Origin: Stenotrophomonas maltophilia
Lineage (GTDB): Bacteria > Pseudomonadota > Gammaproteobacteria > Xanthomonadales > Xanthomonadaceae
DNA length: 64,000 bases
NCBI RefSeq assembly: GCF_900186865.1
Contig: NZ_LT906480.1
Coordinates: 2,374,001 to 2,438,000 of the forward strand
Reading direction: 5' to 3'
The first letter of the stretch is position 1; each line of letters opens with the position of its first letter. The position numbers and the translations under genes were made by a program. Below, piece after piece: positions 27,862 to 43,856 of the stretch. The notes under the pieces were generated by a model. The model did not search any database and was not told the DNA's origin. It saw only the letters and a program-made list of their open reading frames with translations.

Positions 27862-30237
27862 TCAGAACTCCTGCCAGTCTCCGTCGGCAAGCTCGGTGGC
27901 CATCGGGCGACCACCCGCCGTGCGGCGGGCCGGCGGGGCAGCCGGGGACGGGGCAGCCGGTGCAGCGGCGCGCGGCGCCGGGGCGGTGACGCGCGGGGCG
28001 GCGACGACCTCGGCTTCGTCCACCACGAAGATCGACACCGCTTCGCTGAGCTGACCAGCCTGTTCTTCCATCGCACGCGCGGCAGCAGTCGCTTCTTCCA
28101 CCAGCGCGGCATTCTGCTGGGTGGTTTCGTCCATCTGCACCACGGTCTGGTTGACCTGCTCGATGCCGGCCGACTGTTCCTGCGAGGCGGCGGAGATCTC
28201 GGCCATGATGTCGGTCACGCGCTGCACCGAGGCGACGATCTCGCCCATGGTCGCGCCGGCCTTGTGCACCAGCGCCGAGCCGTCGTTGACCTTGCCGACC
28301 GAATCGTCGATCAGGCCCTTGATCTCCTTGGCGGCAGCGGCCGAACGCTGGGCGAGGGTACGCACTTCGCTGGCGACCACGGCGAAGCCGCGGCCCTGCT
28401 CGCCGGCACGCGCGGCTTCCACCGCAGCGTTCAGCGCCAGGATGTTGGTCTGGAAAGCGATGCCGTCGATGACGCTGATGATCTCGGCGATCTTCTTTGA
28501 CGAGGCTTCGATGGCCGACATGGTGGTGACCACCTGGCCGACCACCTCGCCGCCCTGCGAAGCGACGCCGTGCGCGCCGATGGCGAGCTGGTTGGCCTGG
28601 CGGGCGTGCTCGGCGTTCTGGCGCACGGTGGAGGTCAGTTCCTCCATCGAAGCAGCGGTTTCTTCCAGGTTGGCGGCCTGCTGCTCGGTACGGCGCGACA
28701 GGTCACTGTTGCCCGAGGCGATCTCGCCGGCGGCCGAGCTGATCGCGCGGCTGGACTGCTTGATGCGGGTGACGATTTCACTCAGCTGCGCGGCGGTGGC
28801 GTTGGCGTCGTCGCGCATGCGGGCGAACACGCCCTGGTAGTCGCCGTGCATGCGCACGGTCAGGTCACCCTGCGACAGCGCGGCAAGCAGGCCGGAGATC
28901 TGTTCGATGCTGCCGGCATTGGCGTCCAGCAGGCCGTTGATCTGCTGGGCCAGCTGCAGGAAGAAGCCTTCCTTGTCGCTGGCGTCGATGCGGCCGGACA
29001 GGTCGCCGGCGGCGGCCTGGGCGATCACGCGCGCCACTTCGGCTTCGACCAGTGCTTCCTGGGTGCGGTCGCGCCATTCCACCACGTAGCCGACGGTGTC
29101 GCCGCCTTCGTTGCGGATGGTCGACACCACCTGCGCGAACTGGGCATCGCCGTACTGCATCGGGCGACGGGCGACGCCGTGGGCCTTCAGGTTGCCCAAC
29201 AGCGTCTGGTCCATCTCGCCGCGGTGTTCCAGCACGGTGACCGGCTTGCCGATCAACGAGGCCTGGGCGTCGAAGTCCGGCAGGTCGCGGCGTACTTCAT
29301 CCTGGTACTGGCTGAGGGTCTGCTGCAGGGCGCGGTTGCTGTAGACGATGGTGTTGCTGGTATCGGTCAGGTAGACACCGGTCGAGCTGTAGTCCAGCGC
29401 GGTGCGGATGCGCAGGTTCTCGCGGGCAACGGCCTGGTCGGTTTCGATGCGTTCGCGCAGGTCGCGCTGCATCCGCTGCATGGCCTGCATCAGTTCGCCC
29501 ACTTCATCCTGGCGGCTGACGTCGATGTGGCCATCGAGCTTGCCGCCGGCCACGTCGTTGGCAACCGACACGGCGCCACGCACGCTGCCGACCAGGGCGC
29601 GCGCGAACAGCCAGACCAGCACCAGGCCGAGCGCGGCGCCGCCCAGCAGGGCGATCACGGTCAGCACGGCGGAGGCGGAATAGGTGGACGCGGCCTCTTC
29701 GCGCGAGGCGCGGGCGAGGCGGTTGTCTTCGGCGATCAGCGCTTCCAGCGCCGATGCAGCCTTGCGGTGCTTGGTGCGGGTCTCGCCCACGAAGGTATCG
29801 ATGGCATCGTCCGGCAGGTCCAGCTCGAGCATCTCGGTGACGCTGTCGTAGGAGGCCAGGGCGTCCTTCCATTCCTTGGCGAAGGTATCGAACAGCTTCT
29901 TCTGCTGCGCGTTGTCGACCAGCTTCGGGTATTCCTTGATCGACGTGTCCATGCTGGTGCGCAGGTCGACGGCCTGCTTGCGCGCGTCGGACTTGACGTC
30001 ATCGCTGGCGCGGATCAGCTGCTGGTAGGCGGCATTGCGGTACTCGCCCAGCATGCCGCGCATCTCGCCGGCCATGCGGATGCTTTCCATGCGCGAACCG
30101 GCCAACTCGGTGGTGACGTTGTTCAGCGAATGCAGTCCGCGATAGGCGACGATGCCCTGCAGCAGCATCACCAGCAGGAGGACGCCGAAGGTCAACAGCA
30201 GCTTCGGCATCAGTTTCAGGTTGTTGATCCACGGCAT
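27862..30237 (-). CDS. Methyl-accepting chemotaxis protein, four-helix-bundle plus PAS
   Basis: Chemoreceptor of 791 residues with N-terminal helix (about 11-30), periplasmic four-helix-bundle region (about 33-185) and second helix (about 190-212). A HAMP segment follows, then a cytoplasmic PAS-like domain (about 270-390; [20 protein letters not shown]), and the long signalling coil with tip [16 protein letters not shown]. It ends in DGDWQEF, a CheR-docking motif. No conserved PAS haem or FAD residues could be identified, so the PAS cue is unknown. It lies 101 bases downstream of a small secreted-protein gene; a hairpin sits between them, so expression probably depends on read-through from the FliA promoter upstream. 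Confidence 0.94.
28064..28728. repeat. Direct repeat copy 2: receptor signalling-domain DNA
   Basis: Gap-free partner of 25066-25730 and 32769-33433; lies inside the PAS-containing receptor gene. It diverges from the other two just beyond its right end. Confidence 0.85.
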
Positions 30238-30858: not shown

Positions 30859-31350
30859 TCAGGCGGCAGCGTCTTCGGCGAGGGAGGCCTGACCCATGTC
30901 GGCGCTGTCGAGCAGGGTCTCGATGTCCAGCAGGATCAGCATGCGGTCGTCGTGGGTGCCGATGCCGGAGATGAAGCGGGTGTCGACTGCAGCGCCGAAC
31001 TCCGGGGTCGGGCGGATCTGCTCGGCCGACAGCGGGATCACGTCCGACACGCTGTCGACCACGATGCCGACCACGCGGTCTTCGACGTTGAGCACGATCA
31101 TCACGGTGAAAGCGTCGTAGCGGGCGTTGTCCAGGCGCAGCTTCAAGCGCAGGTCGATGACCGGCACGATGGTGCCGCGCAGGTTGATCACACCCTTGAT
31201 GTAATCCGGGGCGTCCGGCACGCGGGTGACCGCATCGTAGCCACGGATCTCCTGCACCTTGAGGATGTCCACGCCGTAGTGCTCGGCGCCGAGGGTGAAG
31301 CTGAGGAATTCGCCACCGGCGCTGGCGGCGGAGCTGGTCTTGTCGTTCAT
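30859..31350 (-). CDS. cheW: Chemotaxis coupling protein CheW
   Basis: Scaffold that links chemoreceptors to CheA in the array. The 163-residue protein is a single CheW domain: [20 protein letters not shown], then [19 protein letters not shown] and [13 protein letters not shown]. It has short flexible ends. A near-consensus FliA promoter lies about 43 bases upstream, so it is transcribed alone, apart from ycgR. It is the only stand-alone cheW in the window and may serve both CheA systems. Confidence 0.95.
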
Positions 31351-32560: not shown

Positions 32561-34810
32561 TCAGAACTCCTGCCAATCACCCTCGGCAGCCAGCGCCGGC
32601 TGGGCGGCCGACGCCCGCAGCGGCCGTGTCGGTGCTGCCTTGGTGACGGGCAGGGCGGCCGCGACCTGACGTGGCTGCGGTGCATTGGCCAACCGTGCCG
32701 GCGCAGCGGCGACGCCCTGCGATGCCAGCCGGAAGCGCGCCACGGCTTCGCCCAGCTGCACGGCCTGGTCTTCCATGGCGCGCGCCGCAGCAGTCGCTTC
32801 CTCCACCAGCGCGGCATTCTGCTGCGTGGTTTCGTCCATCTGCACCACGGTCTGGTTGACCTGCTCGATGCCGGCCGACTGTTCCTGCGAAGCGGCGGAG
32901 ATCTCGGCCATGATGTCGGTCACGCGCTGCACCGAGGCGACGATCTCGCCCATGGTGCTGCCGGCCTGGTGCACCAGGCTGGAGCCTTCGGCGACCTTGC
33001 CGACCGAATCATCGATCAGGCCCTTGATCTCCTTGGCCGCCGCAGCCGAACGCTGGGCGAGGGTACGCACTTCGCTGGCGACCACGGCGAAACCACGGCC
33101 CTGCTCACCGGCACGCGCGGCTTCCACTGCGGCGTTCAGCGCCAGGATGTTGGTCTGGAACGCGATGCCGTCGATGACGCTGATGATCTCGGCGATCTTC
33201 TTCGACGAGGCTTCGATGGCCGACATGGTGGTGACCACCTGGCCGACCACCTCGCCGCCCTGCGAGGCGACACCGTGCGCGCCGATGGCGAGCTGGTTGG
33301 CCTGCCGGGCGTGCTCGGCGTTCTGGCGCACGGTGGAGGTCAGTTCCTCCATCGAGGCGGCGGTCTCTTCCAGGTTGGCGGCCTGCTGCTCGGTACGGCG
33401 CGACAGGTCGCTGTTGCCGGACGCGATCTCGCCAGCGGCGAGGGTGATGCTGGAGGCACTGGCCTGGATCTGGCCGACGATCTGGGTCAGCTGTGCGACG
33501 GTGGTGTTGGCGTCGTCACGCATGCGCGCGAACACGCCGTTGAACTGGCCGTCCATGCGTGCGGTCAGGTCGCCGGCGGCGATCGACTGCAGCAGTTGCG
33601 AGAGCTGGCCGAGGTTGCCGTCGGCCACCTGCATCATGCTGTTGAGCTGCTCGATCATCACGCGGAAATCGTGATCGAAACGCTGCGCATCACCGCGCTG
33701 GCTGAAGTCGCCGGCGGCGGCGGCCGAGGCCAGCTGCTGGATCTGCGTGTTGATGGCCAGCAGGCTGGCCTTGGCCGCGTCCATCGACTCGTGCAGGATC
33801 GCGCGGCTGCCAGGCAGGCGGCGGGCGTCCGGGGCGAGGTTGCCGATGGCGTACTGGTTGAGTACTTCAATGGCATCGACGATCGCATCGAGGTGTTCGA
33901 AGATCACCGTGTTGATGCCGCTGGCCAGCTGGCCGTAGACGCCCGGGAAGTCTTCCGGAATACGGTGGCTGATGTCCGGGCCGGCATGCATCTGTGCCAT
34001 CAACTGGGTCTGTTCGCTGAAGCGGCGCAGCATCGCGGTCATCTCGGCGGTGGCGGCCAGCATCTTGCCGGCTTCGTCCTTGCTGGTGGCCTGGGTGCTG
34101 ACGCTGAGGTCGCCGCGGGCAACCGCCTGGATGGCATGCACGGCCTTGCCCAGCGGGCCAGTGACGGCGCGCGAGATGACGGTGGCCAGTGCGGCGGCCA
34201 CCAACGAAAGCAGCACGATGCAGCTGACGATCGCGATCATGCTGTTGCGATGGGTGGCGTTGGCGTCGGCGATCTTGCCGTCCATCTGGCCGGCGATGTG
34301 GGTGCCCAGCGCCTTCATCGCAGCGAACAGGTCGCGACGCGCCGGGCGCGACTGCTCGTCGGAGATCTGCTGGGCCCGAGCGCCATCACCGGCGGCCACG
34401 GCGTCGCGCATCGCCTTGTTGGCGGCGAAGTAGCGGTCCAGCTGTGCGCTGGCCGCGCGATAGAGTTCACGCTCCTTGGCCAGCGCCGGCAGCGCCGAGT
34501 ACGCGGCCAGCTCGTCATGCACGGCCTTGGCGGTGTCGTCCATGCGCTTGTTGTAGTCGGCGACCTTCTCCGGCTGGTCGAGCATGCTCAGCTGTGCAAG
34601 TTCATAGGTGCGGAATTCTCCCAGCTGCGAGCGCGCCTCGCCCAGGTGCTGGACCGAGGGGATGTCGTTGCCAGCCATCTCGCGCAACTGCGCGTTGGCT
34701 TCGCTCAGGCGCAGCAGTGCGAAGGCGCCGAGGATCAGGGTCATCAAGGTGGTGAGGGTGAACCCCACGGCCAGCTTGCGGGCGATGGGCAGATCTTGGA
34801 ACCACTTCAT
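32561..34810 (-). CDS. Methyl-accepting chemotaxis protein, four-helix-bundle type
   Basis: Chemoreceptor of 749 residues: N-terminal helix (about 12-33), periplasmic helical bundle (about 36-185), second helix (about 189-212), HAMP, further HAMP-like linker repeats ([20 protein letters not shown]), and the signalling coil with tip [20 protein letters not shown]. The C-terminus EGDWQEF is a CheR-docking motif. The signalling part differs from the first receptor by only a few residues (for example [17 protein letters not shown] against [17 protein letters not shown]). It has its own FliA promoter. The ligand is unknown. Confidence 0.95.
32769..33433. repeat. Direct repeat copy 3: receptor signalling-domain DNA
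   Basis: Gap-free partner of 25066-25730 and 28064-28728. Similarity to copy 1 runs on to about 33528, so copies 1 and 3 are the closest pair. Confidence 0.85.
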
Positions 34811-37944: not shown

Positions 37945-38161
37945 ATCGACGCGGTGCGTCGATGCGGTCGCAGCTGAAAAGGGGACGGAGGGGATCAAGT
38001 CGCAAGCGACCTGGCTCTACTGCAGCCCCCTCGGCAACGGCGACCGCGCAGTGGGGACGTAAGGTGTTGATCCAACGGATCAACTCCTTGCGTCCCCGAC
38101 AGGCACCGCTTCGGCGCAAAGCGCCGAGCCACTTGCGACTTAATCCCCTCCGTCCCCTTTT
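37945..38161. repeat. Composite nested inverted-repeat element
   Basis: Outer arms of 30 bases (37977-38006 and 38132-38161, one mismatch) begin AAAAGGGGACGGAGGGGAT. Inside are a 21-base-arm hairpin with loop AAC (38053-38097, two mismatches) starting GGGGACGTAAGG, and a smaller hairpin TCGGCGC/GCGCCGA (38111-38127). A further palindrome ATCGACGC/GCGTCGAT lies at 37945-37963. The element fills the 286-base gap between parP and the STAS gene and has no open reading frame of note. Confidence 0.78.
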
Positions 38162-38168
38162 TTCCAGA

Positions 38169-39383
38169 TCAACTCAACAGCCGTGTGGCGTCCAGCAGGA
38201 TCATCGGGCGCTGGCTGACCCGGGCGACGCCGCGGAACAGATCATTGGAGATCTGGCAGATGCGGGCGGTATCCGGGGGTTCGATCTGTGAATCGGTGAG
38301 GTTGGCGACATCTTCCACTGTCGACACGCGCAGGCCGATGGTCTCGCCGTCCTCTTCCAGCACCACGATGCGGGTCTGGGCATCGTCTTCTGCCGCTGCG
38401 GCGCCGAGGTGCAGGCCGAGGTCCATCACCGGCACCACCTGGCCACGCAGGTTCATGATCCCGAGCATCGCCGGTGCCGTGCCACGCAACGGCAGCAGTG
38501 GCACCGGCAACACCACTTCCTGCACTTTCAGCAGTTCCAGCGCATAGGCCTGGGTCCCGCAGCGCAGGCGCAGCCAGCGCGAGGTGCGCTCGCCGGCGCG
38601 GCGGTTCTGCGGGTGCGGGCTGCTGGCGGGCTGGTGCGCCTGCGCCTGCAGCTCCTGCCAGGTACCGGGACGGTTGGTGGCCGGGGCATCCAGGGCAACG
38701 CGGGGCGGCGGCGCGGCGGCAGCACGCGCGGCCGGGGCGGGCGCGGGTGCAGGGCGCGGTGCCGGGGGCGCAACCACGGCCGGTGGCGGCGTGGGGACAT
38801 CCTCGCCACCAGCAGCGGCTTCGAACGCAGCCTGCAGACCGGGGCTGTCAGTGTGGGCGAGCTGATGGCTGTCGGCCGCGTCGGTCTCGTAGATCACTTC
38901 GTCGGGCAGGTCGTCCCAGGTGGGCTCCGGGCCGGTCTTGGCCGGGGCCGTCTCGTGGATCACCTCGTCAGGCAGGTCATCCCTGGTCGGTTCGCGCTCG
39001 GGAGCGGCGACCGGCATTGCGGCGGCCTCGAAGGCGGCTTCCAGTGCTGCCTCGTCCTGTGCCGGGGCAGCGGCAACAGTGTCCGTCTCATAGATCACTT
39101 CGGGGGGCAGATCGTCCCAGGTGGGTTCGCGCTCGGCCGTTGTGGCCGCCTCGAAGGCGGCTTCGAGCGCGGCGTTGTCCACGGCAGGCCCCGCGGCAAC
39201 GGTGTCGGTTTCGTAGATCACCTCGGCCGGCAGGTCATCCCAGGTCGGCTCGCGTTCCGGTTCCGATGTGCTGTCCGGAGCCGGGGCGGCGCTGTCCGGC
39301 GTTGGCAGCACGACGGCCGCCGGGGCGATCGCTTCGCCCAGCAGTTCGTCCAGGTAGTCGTCCAGTACGCCGGTGCTGTTCAT
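38169..39383 (-). CDS. parP: ParP-like CheW-domain protein with acidic N-terminal repeats
   Basis: Likely partner of ParC that tethers chemosensory arrays to the cell pole. The 404-residue protein has a C-terminal CheW-like domain (about 268-404; RWLRLRCGTQAYALELLKVQ, MLGIMNLRGQVVPVMDLG). The N-terminal 200 residues are low in complexity and carry four copies of EPTWDDLPxEVIYETD (about 45-60, 86-101, 131-146, 153-168), most alternating with LEAAFEAA modules. A Pro/Ala linker follows. The ATG overlaps the parC stop by four bases. The gene order motC-motD-parC-parP matches Pseudomonas and Vibrio. The repeats are not part of the ParP descriptions I know. Confidence 0.9.
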   Translation of the reverse strand: MNSTGVLDDYLDELLGEAIAPAAVVLPTPDSAAPAPDSTSEPEREPTWDDLPAEVIYETDTVAAGPAVDNAALEAAFEAATTAEREPTWDDLPPEVIYETDTVAAAPAQDEAALEAAFEAAAMPVAAPEREPTRDDLPDEVIHETAPAKTGPEPTWDDLPDEVIYETDAADSHQLAHTDSPGLQAAFEAAAGGEDVPTPPPAVVAPPAPRPAPAPAPAARAAAAPPPRVALDAPATNRPGTWQELQAQAHQPASSPHPQNRRAGERTSRWLRLRCGTQAYALELLKVQEVVLPVPLLPLRGTAPAMLGIMNLRGQVVPVMDLGLHLGAAAAEDDAQTRIVVLEEDGETIGLRVSTVEDVANLTDSQIEPPDTARICQISNDLFRGVARVSQRPMILLDATRLLS

Positions 39384-40162
39384 GCGGCCTGCTCCAAGGC
39401 ACGGGCATCCTCACCGAGGATCCAGTTCAGTGCGCGGCGATAGGCGGCCAGGCCGCGGCCCGGGTAGTCCTCACCAACGCTGGGCAGGGTCAGGCCTGCG
39501 GCATTGCTGATGCGGGTGTCGATCGGAATGGCGTCTTCCCACACGCGGGTGCCCTGGCGATCCTGCATCGTGCGCAGCGACTCGTTGCCGGCGCGGGTGC
39601 GGCGGTCGAACAGGGTCGGCAGGATCGAGATCGGCAGCGGGCGGCGGCGCGAGCGCTCGACCATCTCGCCGGTGCGGACCATGCCGTCCAGGCCATGCAG
39701 GGCCAGCGGCTCTGCCTGGGTGGGAATGATCAGGCGGTCGGCAGCGGCCAGCGCGTTGATCATCAACAGGCCAAGGGTGGGGGCACAGTCCAGCAGTATG
39801 TAGTCGTGCTGGCCCTGGTGACGCGCCAGTGCGTTCTGCAGGGCCAGGCCGAGGCCGGGCTGGTTGGCGCTGCGGCGCTCCAGCGTGGCCAGCGCCGACT
39901 GCGCGCAGACGTAGTCCAGGCCGTGGATGCTGCTGGCATGGCACAGGCTGGAAAGATCGGCCGGCGGGGCGCCGAACAGTTCCAGCACGCCCGCCGGTGG
40001 CGGATCCACCGGCACGCCGAAGGCGCGGCTGAGCGAGGCATGCGGATCGAGGTCGATCAGCAGCACGCGATGGCCAAGTGCGGCCAGGCCGCGGCCGAGG
40101 GCGAGGGTGGTGGTGGTCTTGCCGACTCCGCCCTTCTGGTTGGCGACTGCCCAGATGCGCAT
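39380..40162 (-). CDS. parC: ParC-type ParA ATPase for polar chemotaxis arrays
   Basis: MinD/ParA-family ATPase that positions chemosensory arrays and helps their inheritance at division in polar flagellates. The 260-residue protein has the deviant Walker A motif NQKGGVGKTTTTLAL at the N-terminus, a Walker A' segment LLIDLDPHASLS and a Walker B-like YILLDCAPTLGLLM. It lies four bases after motD and overlaps parP by four bases, so it belongs to motC-motD-parC-parP. It differs from FleN, the flagellar-number ATPase at 45654-46541. Confidence 0.93.
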   Translation of the reverse strand: MRIWAVANQKGGVGKTTTTLALGRGLAALGHRVLLIDLDPHASLSRAFGVPVDPPPAGVLELFGAPPADLSSLCHASSIHGLDYVCAQSALATLERRSANQPGLGLALQNALARHQGQHDYILLDCAPTLGLLMINALAAADRLIIPTQAEPLALHGLDGMVRTGEMVERSRRRPLPISILPTLFDRRTRAGNESLRTMQDRQGTRVWEDAIPIDTRISNAAGLTLPSVGEDYPGRGLAAYRRALNWILGEDARALEQAA

Positions 40163-42026: not shown

Positions 42027-43856
42027 TCAGCGTATGCCGTCCACGTCCAGGATCAGTGCCATGCGACCATCGCCGATCAACGTTGCACCGGCATAACCGC
42101 GCAGGCCGCGCAGGGCTTTTGGCAGTGGCTTGATGACCACTTCCTCGCGCCCGCGCACCTGGTCCACGACCAGGCCGAAGCGCGCTTCGCCGGCCTGCAG
42201 CACCACGATGGTCAGCAGGGTTGACGCGGCCGGCGTCACATCCAGCCACTGGCGCAGGTCGACCAGCGGCAGGGTGTGCGAGCGGCGATCAAGCACGGCG
42301 CGGCCATCGAACCAGCCCAGCGAGGTGCGCGGCGCGTGCAGCACTTCCATCACGCGTGCCAGCGGTAGCGCGTAGACGTCCTCGCCGGCCTGCACCAGCA
42401 GGGTCGGCAGGATCGCGAGGGTGAGCGGCACGCGGATCAGGAAGCGGCTGCCACGACCCAGTTCCGACTGGATCTGGATCTGGCCGCTCAGTTCGCGGAT
42501 GCGCGACTGCACCACGTCCATGCCGACGCCACGGCCGGAGATGTCGGTGACCTGCTGCTTGGTCGAGAAGCCGGGCAGGAACACCAGGTGCAGGCATTCC
42601 TCGCTGCTCAGGCGGGCGGCGGCTTCCGGATCGATCAGGCCTTTCTCACGCGCCTTCGCGCGCAGCTTCTCCGGGTCGATGCCGGCGCCATCGTCCTGCA
42701 CCTCGATGCTGACGTAGTCGCCTTCCTGCTGCGCCGACAGGCGTACATGGCCCATCCGCGGCTTGCCTTGTGCTTCGCGCAGGTCGGGCATTTCCACGCC
42801 ATGGTCGATGGCGTTGCGGACCAGGTGCACCAGCGGATCGGCCAGTGCTTCGACCAGGTTGCGGTCGAGTTCGGTTTCGGCGCCGACCAGCTCCAGGTCC
42901 ACTTCCTTCTTCAGCGAGCGGGCGACGTCGCGGGCGACCTTGGGGAAGCGCGAGAACACCTTGCCCACCGGCTGCATGCGGGTACGCATCACCGCCGACT
43001 GCAGGCGGGCAGTGGCGATGTCCAGCGTCGATACGGCGCGGTCCAGCTCCTCGTCGCGCAGGCGTGCACGCAGGGTCTTCAGGCGGTTGCGGGAAAGCAC
43101 CAGTTCGCCGATCAGGTTGACGATCGCATCCAGGCGCTTGGTGTCCACGCGCACGGTGTGCTCGGCCTCGGCCATCGGCTTGGCCGCCGGCTTGGCGGCG
43201 GGCGCCGGTACGGGCGCTGGGCGCGGTGCAGCGGCAGGCGCCGCCGCGACGGTGGCAGCAGGCTTCGCGCCTGGCGCAGCGCCGCCGTGCAGCTGGTCCA
43301 GCAGCGCTTCGAACTCGTCTTCGCTGATCAGGCCGTCGTCGGTCTTCCTGGTCGGCGCGACCGCGGTCGGTGCGTTGCCGCCATGCAGCTGGTCGAGCAG
43401 GGCCTCGAATTCGTCGTCGGTGATCAGGTCGCTGCCACCTGCCGCAGGGGCGGCCGCAGCGACCGGCGCGGCAGTGCCACCGTTCATGTCGAACTGCGTG
43501 ATCAGGTCCGGCGGCGCATAGCCTGGCTCGGTGCCGGAGGACACGGCGTCCAGCATCGACTGCAGGTAGTCCAGCGATTGCTGGGCGGCGTCGAAGTGGT
43601 GGGCCTGCAGCACCGCCTGCCCGGCACGCGCGATGCCCAGGGCCTCTTCAGCGGCGTGGCACAGTTCGACCATCGCGGTGACGCCAAGGAAGCCGGCACC
43701 GCCCTTGAGCGTGTGGTATCCACGGAACACCGCGTTGAGCTGCTCGGTGTCCTGCGGTGCCTGCTCCAGCGACACCAGCTGTTCGCCCAGGCGATCCAGG
43801 ATTTCCTGTGCCTCGATGATGAAATCGGCAGTGATGTCGTCGGATACCGCGCTCAT
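42027..43856 (-). CDS. cheA: Flagellar-type chemotaxis kinase CheA of system B
   Basis: Central kinase of the polar flagellum. The 609-residue protein has P1/HPt with H48 (FRGYHTLKGGAGFLGV). A linker in place of a clear P2 carries two near-identical copies of LIxxDEFEALLDQLHG (about 144-159 and 176-191), followed by an Ala/Pro tract. P3, the P4 ATPase (LVHLVRNAIDHG, DDGAGIDP, GRGVGMDVV) and P5 (GYAGATLIGDGRMALILDVD) follow. It is preceded by cheY-cheZ with a two-base gap. Unlike Pseudomonas, no cheB lies between cheA and motC. The linker motifs occupy the place where CheA proteins of ParC/ParP systems carry a localisation region (inference). Confidence 0.95.
   Translation of the reverse strand: MSAVSDDITADFIIEAQEILDRLGEQLVSLEQAPQDTEQLNAVFRGYHTLKGGAGFLGVTAMVELCHAAEEALGIARAGQAVLQAHHFDAAQQSLDYLQSMLDAVSSGTEPGYAPPDLITQFDMNGGTAAPVAAAAPAAGGSDLITDDEFEALLDQLHGGNAPTAVAPTRKTDDGLISEDEFEALLDQLHGGAAPGAKPAATVAAAPAAAPRPAPVPAPAAKPAAKPMAEAEHTVRVDTKRLDAIVNLIGELVLSRNRLKTLRARLRDEELDRAVSTLDIATARLQSAVMRTRMQPVGKVFSRFPKVARDVARSLKKEVDLELVGAETELDRNLVEALADPLVHLVRNAIDHGVEMPDLREAQGKPRMGHVRLSAQQEGDYVSIEVQDDGAGIDPEKLRAKAREKGLIDPEAAARLSSEECLHLVFLPGFSTKQQVTDISGRGVGMDVVQSRIRELSGQIQIQSELGRGSRFLIRVPLTLAILPTLLVQAGEDVYALPLARVMEVLHAPRTSLGWFDGRAVLDRRSHTLPLVDLRQWLDVTPAASTLLTIVVLQAGEARFGLVVDQVRGREEVVIKPLPKALRGLRGYAGATLIGDGRMALILDVDGIR

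Follow-up and report, generated by a model that had tools for sequence, protein, structure and literature searches.

How a bacterium outside Vibrio might hold its chemoreceptor arrays at the cell pole is a question raised by a gene of Stenotrophomonas maltophilia that directly follows parC. Polar holding of these arrays is known mainly from Vibrio, where ParP is encoded by the gene after parC in a chemotaxis cluster and consists of an N-terminal part for ParC, a proline-rich linker and a C-terminal SH3-like array domain (PMC5706961). The gene examined here lies in a stretch of 64,000 nucleotides (the window), and an earlier note on this DNA had called its product ParP and drawn attention to repeats in it. 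What kind of protein follows parC here, and what could the repeats be for?

The gene after parC and its C-terminal domain

The gene belongs to a chemotaxis cluster with the order cheZ-cheA-motC-motD-parC-hybrid gene, which relatives share as far as the fetched stretches extend. It lies directly downstream of parC, as is usual for parP, and its ATG overlaps the parC stop codon. The product begins with a helix bearing a YLxxLL motif, of which Y10 and L14 are invariant in 40 aligned relatives; the similar YLDxLL of canonical ParPs in other families is present there partly by selection, since the script that delimited those proteins demanded such a motif. Between this helix and a CheW-like domain is a linker of about 250 residues, mostly with pLDDT below 60 in the AlphaFold model and read as disordered, while the domain itself reaches a pLDDT of about 90 over most of its length. 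A second CheW is encoded at 30859-31350 of the window, so the protein need not be the sole coupling protein. The space between the gene and a neighbouring STAS-domain gene contains a 42-nt inverted repeat (86% complementary, arms 101 nt apart, 37977-38161) that looks like a palindromic repeat element.

The domain that defines ParP, the AIF domain, forms a clade of its own that is nearer to CheA P5 than to CheW (Alvarado et al., PMC5706961). In an unrooted tree of 58 domains, on which the AIF branches are long, canonical AIFs split from the xanthomonad, CheW and P5 rows at 99/97, and the xanthomonad rows group with CheW domain rows at 86/90. A CheW profile matches the window protein at 77.9 bits; an AIF profile has no match to it at E <= 0.001, and its matches to the hybrids of five other genomes are weak (20-35 bits). 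The tree grouping, together with the CheW match and the missing AIF match, is the reason for calling the domain, on sequence grounds, CheW-type and not the AIF by which ParP is recognized.

Individual residues can also be compared. A tryptophan that by eye matches W305 of Vibrio cholerae, a residue of the CheA interaction, is invariant in 11 canonical AIFs, although partly by selection, as their frames were chosen in part for a W-G near the end. By eye, the window domain has NDLFRGV at this site, and no tryptophan occurs after residue 270. It does have the NLRG of CheW, and both MNLRG and VPV are invariant in 40 relatives. CheW is typically a stand-alone single domain, whereas here it is preceded by an N-terminal extension of 269 residues. 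From these features, the protein looks like a natural hybrid of a ParP tether and CheW. The name ParP in the earlier note is therefore apt for the N-terminal motif and the place after parC, but not for the C-terminal domain, which is CheW-type and lacks the W305 residue.

Elsewhere in the Gammaproteobacteria, the families compared have the order parC-parP-cheW. Of 19 such loci with parC, 15 yielded a canonical ParP, in one case truncated by the end of its contig, with the YLDxLL motif at the N-terminus, then a short linker and then an AIF domain. The script took only frames that had this motif and also a W-G close to their end, which may account for some of the four misses. By eye, none of these 15 canonical ParPs has repeats like those of the hybrid. 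In the window's own family, a single gene follows parC in the loci read, except in two genomes of one genus (G034 and G085). The window protein has a match at E <= 1e-15 in 31 of 60 family genomes, which in two cases is a separate CheW. With the AIF profile, 24 of the 60 genomes give matches at E <= 0.001, strong only in G034 (3e-23) and G085 (5e-20); the next best is at 2e-9, and most of the remaining ones are the CheW of a second chemotaxis cluster. G085 encodes a short ParP ending in an RPWLAG motif, followed by a separate CheW. In G034, a CheW likewise comes directly after the probable ParP. With their order of parC, canonical ParP and separate cheW, read through in L327 (G085), these two loci (L326 and L327) are useful for comparison when asking how the hybrid arose.

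Table 1. Features of the hybrid gene and its cluster, with positions in the window and residues (aa) of the encoded protein.
Feature	Position	Strand	Basis
cheA, same cluster	42027..43856	minus	ORF, domain match and gene order
CheA LID motif copy 1, LITDDEFEALLDQLHGG, aa 144-160 of CheA	43377..43427	minus	sequence
CheA LID motif copy 2, LISEDEFEALLDQLHGG, aa 176-192 of CheA	43281..43331	minus	sequence
parC, ParA-type ATPase, directly upstream of hybrid gene	39380..40162	minus	AAA_31, E 4.4e-38
ParP-type tether/CheW hybrid gene	38169..39383	minus	ORF, 404 aa; Pfam CheW
N-terminal helix VLDDYLDELLGEA, aa 6-18, candidate ParC-binding site	39330..39368	minus	alignment of relatives
Repeat copy 1, EPTWDDLPAEVIYET, aa 45-59	39207..39251	minus	sequence
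ALEAAFEAA helix, aa 72-80, after copy 1	39144..39170	minus	sequence and AlphaFold model
Repeat copy 2, EPTWDDLPPEVIYET, aa 86-100	39084..39128	minus	sequence
ALEAAFEAA helix, aa 113-121, after copy 2	39021..39047	minus	sequence and AlphaFold model
Repeat copy 3, EPTRDDLPDEVIHET, aa 131-145, R for W and H for Y	38949..38993	minus	sequence
Repeat copy 4, EPTWDDLPDEVIYET, aa 153-167	38883..38927	minus	sequence
GLQAAFEAA helix, aa 182-190, after copy 4	38814..38840	minus	sequence and AlphaFold model
CheW-type domain, aa 270-404	38172..38576	minus	Pfam CheW PF01584 at 271-403, E 1.9e-30; domain tree; profiles

Copies of a 15-residue peptide in the linker

The linker of the hybrid contains four copies of a 15-residue peptide, EPTWDDLPxEVIYET. 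As had been claimed, all four lie in the first 170 residues, and most alternate with LEAAFEAA modules, which follow copies 1, 2 and 4. The consensus given for them describes the set, but the third copy departs from it at two positions (Table 1). In a 98% identical homologue (P0001), copy 3 has tryptophan where the window has arginine, and this arginine is a single case among the 144 copies compared below; copy 3 may be a decaying one. The best self-score of a 14-mer within the linker is 75, against 32.7 +/- 3.5 in 100 shuffles, and the four copies exceed the shuffled maximum of 43. TRF detects a portion of the array, with a 123-bp unit in 1.9 copies. No fold is predicted for the 15-mer. A search of the Stenotrophomonas genome with one pattern finds it in the hybrid gene only, so there is no second bearer that could point to a receptor.

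Copy number varies within the genus. A homologue search, in which 8000 candidates were scored, has five copies in 13, four in 87, three in 19 and two in 1 of the 120 homologues listed out of 1134, and all of those listed with a name are Stenotrophomonas. In a separate genus sample, 75 of 81 Stenotrophomonas genomes match at E <= 1e-40. Of these, 72 were read, the other three beginning at contig ends, and 69 were counted after three with a truncated gene or an insecure start had been excluded. Zero, one, two, three, four and five copies are found in 5, 25, 5, 9, 23 and 2 of the 69 genomes; at least two copies are present in 39, and at least one in 64, so the repeats are not confined to one strain. 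The single copy of many species sits, by eye, at the position of copy 4 in the window. Beyond the genus sample, the motif occurs in 26 of 94 loci, all from Stenotrophomonas by record title if [Pseudomonas] hibiscicola and a mislabelled Bacillus subtilis are included, and many of the 26 are strains already in the sample. The latter record, a contig titled Bacillus subtilis SK7B5 with a Stenotrophomonas-type chemotaxis locus, is mislabelled or contaminated. Comparison of Stenotrophomonas with Xanthomonas, as the earlier note had proposed, finds the 15-mer, within the sample, in Stenotrophomonas-type loci only; the Xanthomonas loci have other repeats or none.

The copies differ from one another mainly in silent positions. 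Between two window copies, the share of differing sites is 40-90% for synonymous and 3-11% for non-synonymous sites (pooled pN/pS 0.11). A genus-wide comparison covers 144 copies from 41 distinct genes with at least two copies each, detected by the DDLP core alone, so that the four core columns are conserved by construction. The nine motif columns outside this core have a pS of 0.45 and a pN of 0.037; 17 outer columns have a pS of 0.60 and a pN of 0.52, the latter inflated because these columns were compared without indel alignment. Neither pool includes column E(-3) (pN 0.025) or the free position x (pN 0.30). Constraint begins abruptly at E(-3) and stops just as abruptly at T(+11), the two ends of the 15-mer, and these edges are independent of the core-based detection. 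Within them, 13 of 15 positions hardly vary, four of these by construction, while adjoining positions drift. Since synonymous divergence between copies is about 0.5 and non-synonymous divergence 0.04, the copies look selected and unlike the outcome of recent slippage. An invariant DDLP core with a late aromatic, as first described, is too narrow a picture: the flanking E, P, T, E, V, E and T vary about as little as the core does, and histidine replaces the late aromatic in 29 of the 144 copies.

These data bear on the idea that the linker is a neutral, slippage-prone spacer of which length and disorder alone matter. Coding repeats rich in GC are prone to expansion, the type and number of repeats change fast among relatives, and the arrays of Silanimonas lenta and of the Xanthomonas bonasiae group are nearly identical in DNA. 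However, the window and genus copies are old by their synonymous divergence and yet nearly fixed at those 13 positions while their neighbours drift, and the sharp edges also argue against a neutral spacer, which we regard as improbable.

A resemblance to receptors deserves mention as well. The C-terminal xWxxF pentapeptide of chemoreceptors has a role in recruiting the adaptation enzymes CheR or CheB. Receptors encoded at 27862-30237 and 32561-34810 (minus strand) both end in DWQEF, and TWDDL and TWQEL of the hybrid protein have W-x-x-hydrophobic in common with this ending. It is nevertheless very doubtful that TWDDL mimics the pentapeptide to recruit CheR or CheB, as the motif is internal to the hybrid protein and not C-terminal; the candidate was rejected because the constraint covers 15 residues, including EVIYET.

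Peptides in the linkers of relatives and the LID of CheA

Self-matches above all 100 shuffles are found in 99 of 129 distinct linkers, 71 of which have at least three copies, and at five loci the best self-match is merely proline/alanine-rich. Four peptide classes, named by eye and counted by pattern, can be distinguished. WDDLPxEVIYET belongs to Stenotrophomonas; a LAEMDADPAF/LLDELMNDPAL/FDDLLDEL-type class is found in most Xanthomonas loci and in other Stenotrophomonas clades; and an ELEAAFEAA-type class is another repeated linker peptide among relatives. The fourth, DEFEALLDxLHG, is the LID peptide of CheA, and it occurs in the hybrid linker of some genera: two copies in Silanimonas, two or three in 5 of 9 complete Pseudoxanthomonas loci, four in Lysobacter sp. 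CAU 1642, and three each in Pseudomarimonas and one MAG. The AlphaFold model of the Silanimonas hybrid has blocks with LID helices at pLDDT 81. The linkers of Luteimonas and several Lysobacter are short and lack such repeats.

The classes were placed on a tree of ParC plus the CheW domain, whose 128 rows came down to 80 after thinning at 97% identity; along it, the dominant class switches 15 times. At least two copies of one of the four classes are present in 48 of the 80 relatives. The other 32 have fewer than two copies of any class, so the array is not required in every species. Pattern-detected copies within classes have pN/pS of 0.05-0.15, and some arrays are recent (pS 0.0 for the LID copies of Silanimonas lenta, 0.09-0.14 in the X. 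bonasiae group). Since relatives have arrays of other peptides in the same place, it appears that the number of grips on the tether matters.

LID is the part of CheA that binds ParP (PMC5706961, PMC7534058). The window CheA has two DEFEALLDxLHG peptides and the window hybrid has none; those in CheA probably correspond to the LID of the Vibrio papers, judging by their place in CheA and the link to parC/parP. In other families, 14 of 15 CheAs carry one to seven LID peptides by pattern, with seven at a single locus, and the fifteenth is cut at its start. LID itself thus looks like a multi-copy motif array, and the available parts of PMC5706961 and PMC7534058 contain no description of it as such or as part of a tether. 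Within the family, the thinned tree includes 63 CheAs, 59 of them with one LID or more. The four without are those of a Silanimonas, Lysobacter sp. CAU 1642, Coralloluteibacterium and one further locus (L162). The hybrid beside the first carries two LID copies and that beside the second four, while the third and fourth have five ELEAAFEAA-type and six ELDAAFDQA-type copies, respectively, although as many as 24 of the 80 rows have an array of at least two LID or LEAAFEAA-type copies in any case. The CheA of X. populi also lacks LID, next to a hybrid with five LAEMDADPAF-type copies, and six other relatives have LID in both proteins. Around its LIDs, the window CheA is 50-60% identical to three LID-bearing hybrid linkers. 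The distribution of LID, which offers few independent pairs, suggests a possible swap between CheA and tether.

At two loci an intact CheA was found by translation but missed by BLAST. At seven Xanthomonas loci, BLAST finds no complete cheA upstream of motC in the stretch fetched; translating 2 kb upstream gave no cheA at one of these either, and at another, X. hortorum jj2001, only the 3' part of cheA lies upstream of motC.

A tentative history can be drawn for the Xanthomonadaceae (Lysobacteraceae). ParP may have lost its array domain and joined a CheW-type domain, with LID docking portable to CheA, the tether or both and exchanged by lineage for WDDLPxEVIYET, LAEMDADPAF or ELEAAFEAA, such that selection would keep the valency of the tether and not one peptide. 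The CheA of Stenotrophomonas keeps conserved LIDs, while the AIF-type partner known from Vibrio is not found there, and LID may consequently have another receptor. No resemblance of the WDDLP 15-mer to LID was shown.

The peptides could instead be extra sites for ParC or for a polar hub protein. They would then make the tether bind the pole with higher avidity, and array units would not be what they grip. In sister lineages, FDDLLDE (7 distinct segments) and LLDELxNDP (11) resemble the N-terminal helix more than do 488 and 487, respectively, of 500 column-permuted profiles, and WDDLPDEVIYE aligns by eye with LDDYLDELLGE. However, the resemblance of WDDLP to the helix is reached by 52 of 500 permuted profiles, which is not beyond composition, and for the repeats of the window protein it is therefore unproven. 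The corresponding numbers are 69 for Xanthomonas LAEMDADP, 77 and 89 for LID in the hybrid and in CheA, and 112 for the LEAAFEAA type. We consider additional pole-binding sites unlikely, though less so than a neutral spacer. The broader proposal that all repeats are copies of the N-terminal helix is kept as a lead only, the permutation test being weak for the window motif.

A proposed multivalent tether and its relation to known systems

The reading that we favour, by a little, is a polar tether and coupling domain with a multivalent docking array. The N-terminal helix probably binds ParC at the pole, by its position and by analogy with Vibrio (PMC5706961), and the CheW-type domain, like others of its family, would sit in the chemoreceptor array. 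Peptides of the flexible linker would each bind a putative partner, several at once, so that one ParC-bound molecule could grip several partners and hold or nucleate array units at the pole. The first choice for that partner would be an SH3-like array domain, because LID, which sister lineages have at the same site, has an SH3-like domain as its binding partner in Vibrio; the strongest competing candidate is ParC. The multivalent docking motif proposed in the earlier note fits well with conserved, separately selected copies in a disordered tether. Natural copy numbers from 0 to 5, and the other peptides of sister lineages, are material for asking if array positioning depends on valency.

The earlier note knew of no description of such repeats. 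No description of the repeats or of the hybrid was found in titles and abstract starts on ParP, ParC, LID and xanthomonad CheW, a set with short coverage of subscription papers, and the main text of PMC5706961 has no word starting with "repeat". Work on ParC/ParP of Pseudomonas putida is cited as prepublished in PMC12918733.

Several known systems are comparable in part. The hybrid has the gene place of ParP in V. cholerae and V. parahaemolyticus and, with its candidate ParC-binding part, the same tether/linker/SH3-like layout, but it differs in its CheW-type rather than AIF-type domain, in having the repeats and a far longer linker, and in the absence of a W305 equivalent. The window repeats are, like the CheA LID, short acidic linker peptides, and LID occurs in tandem in many of the CheAs compared here and also in the tether linkers of some relatives; the peptide itself is a different one. 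Alvarado et al. 2017 (PMC5706961) joined the ParC-interaction part of ParP to CheA P5, and polar clusters returned in 65% of cells with this chimera; a tether fused to another core-unit domain can therefore work. The hybrid similarly joins a candidate ParC-interaction part to a core-unit SH3-like domain other than AIF, but it is natural and not built in the laboratory, and its domain is of the CheW type. Finally, CheV is a CheW fused to a CheY-like domain (PMC7534058). The hybrid is likewise a CheW domain with an added module, which in this case is a tether with repeats.
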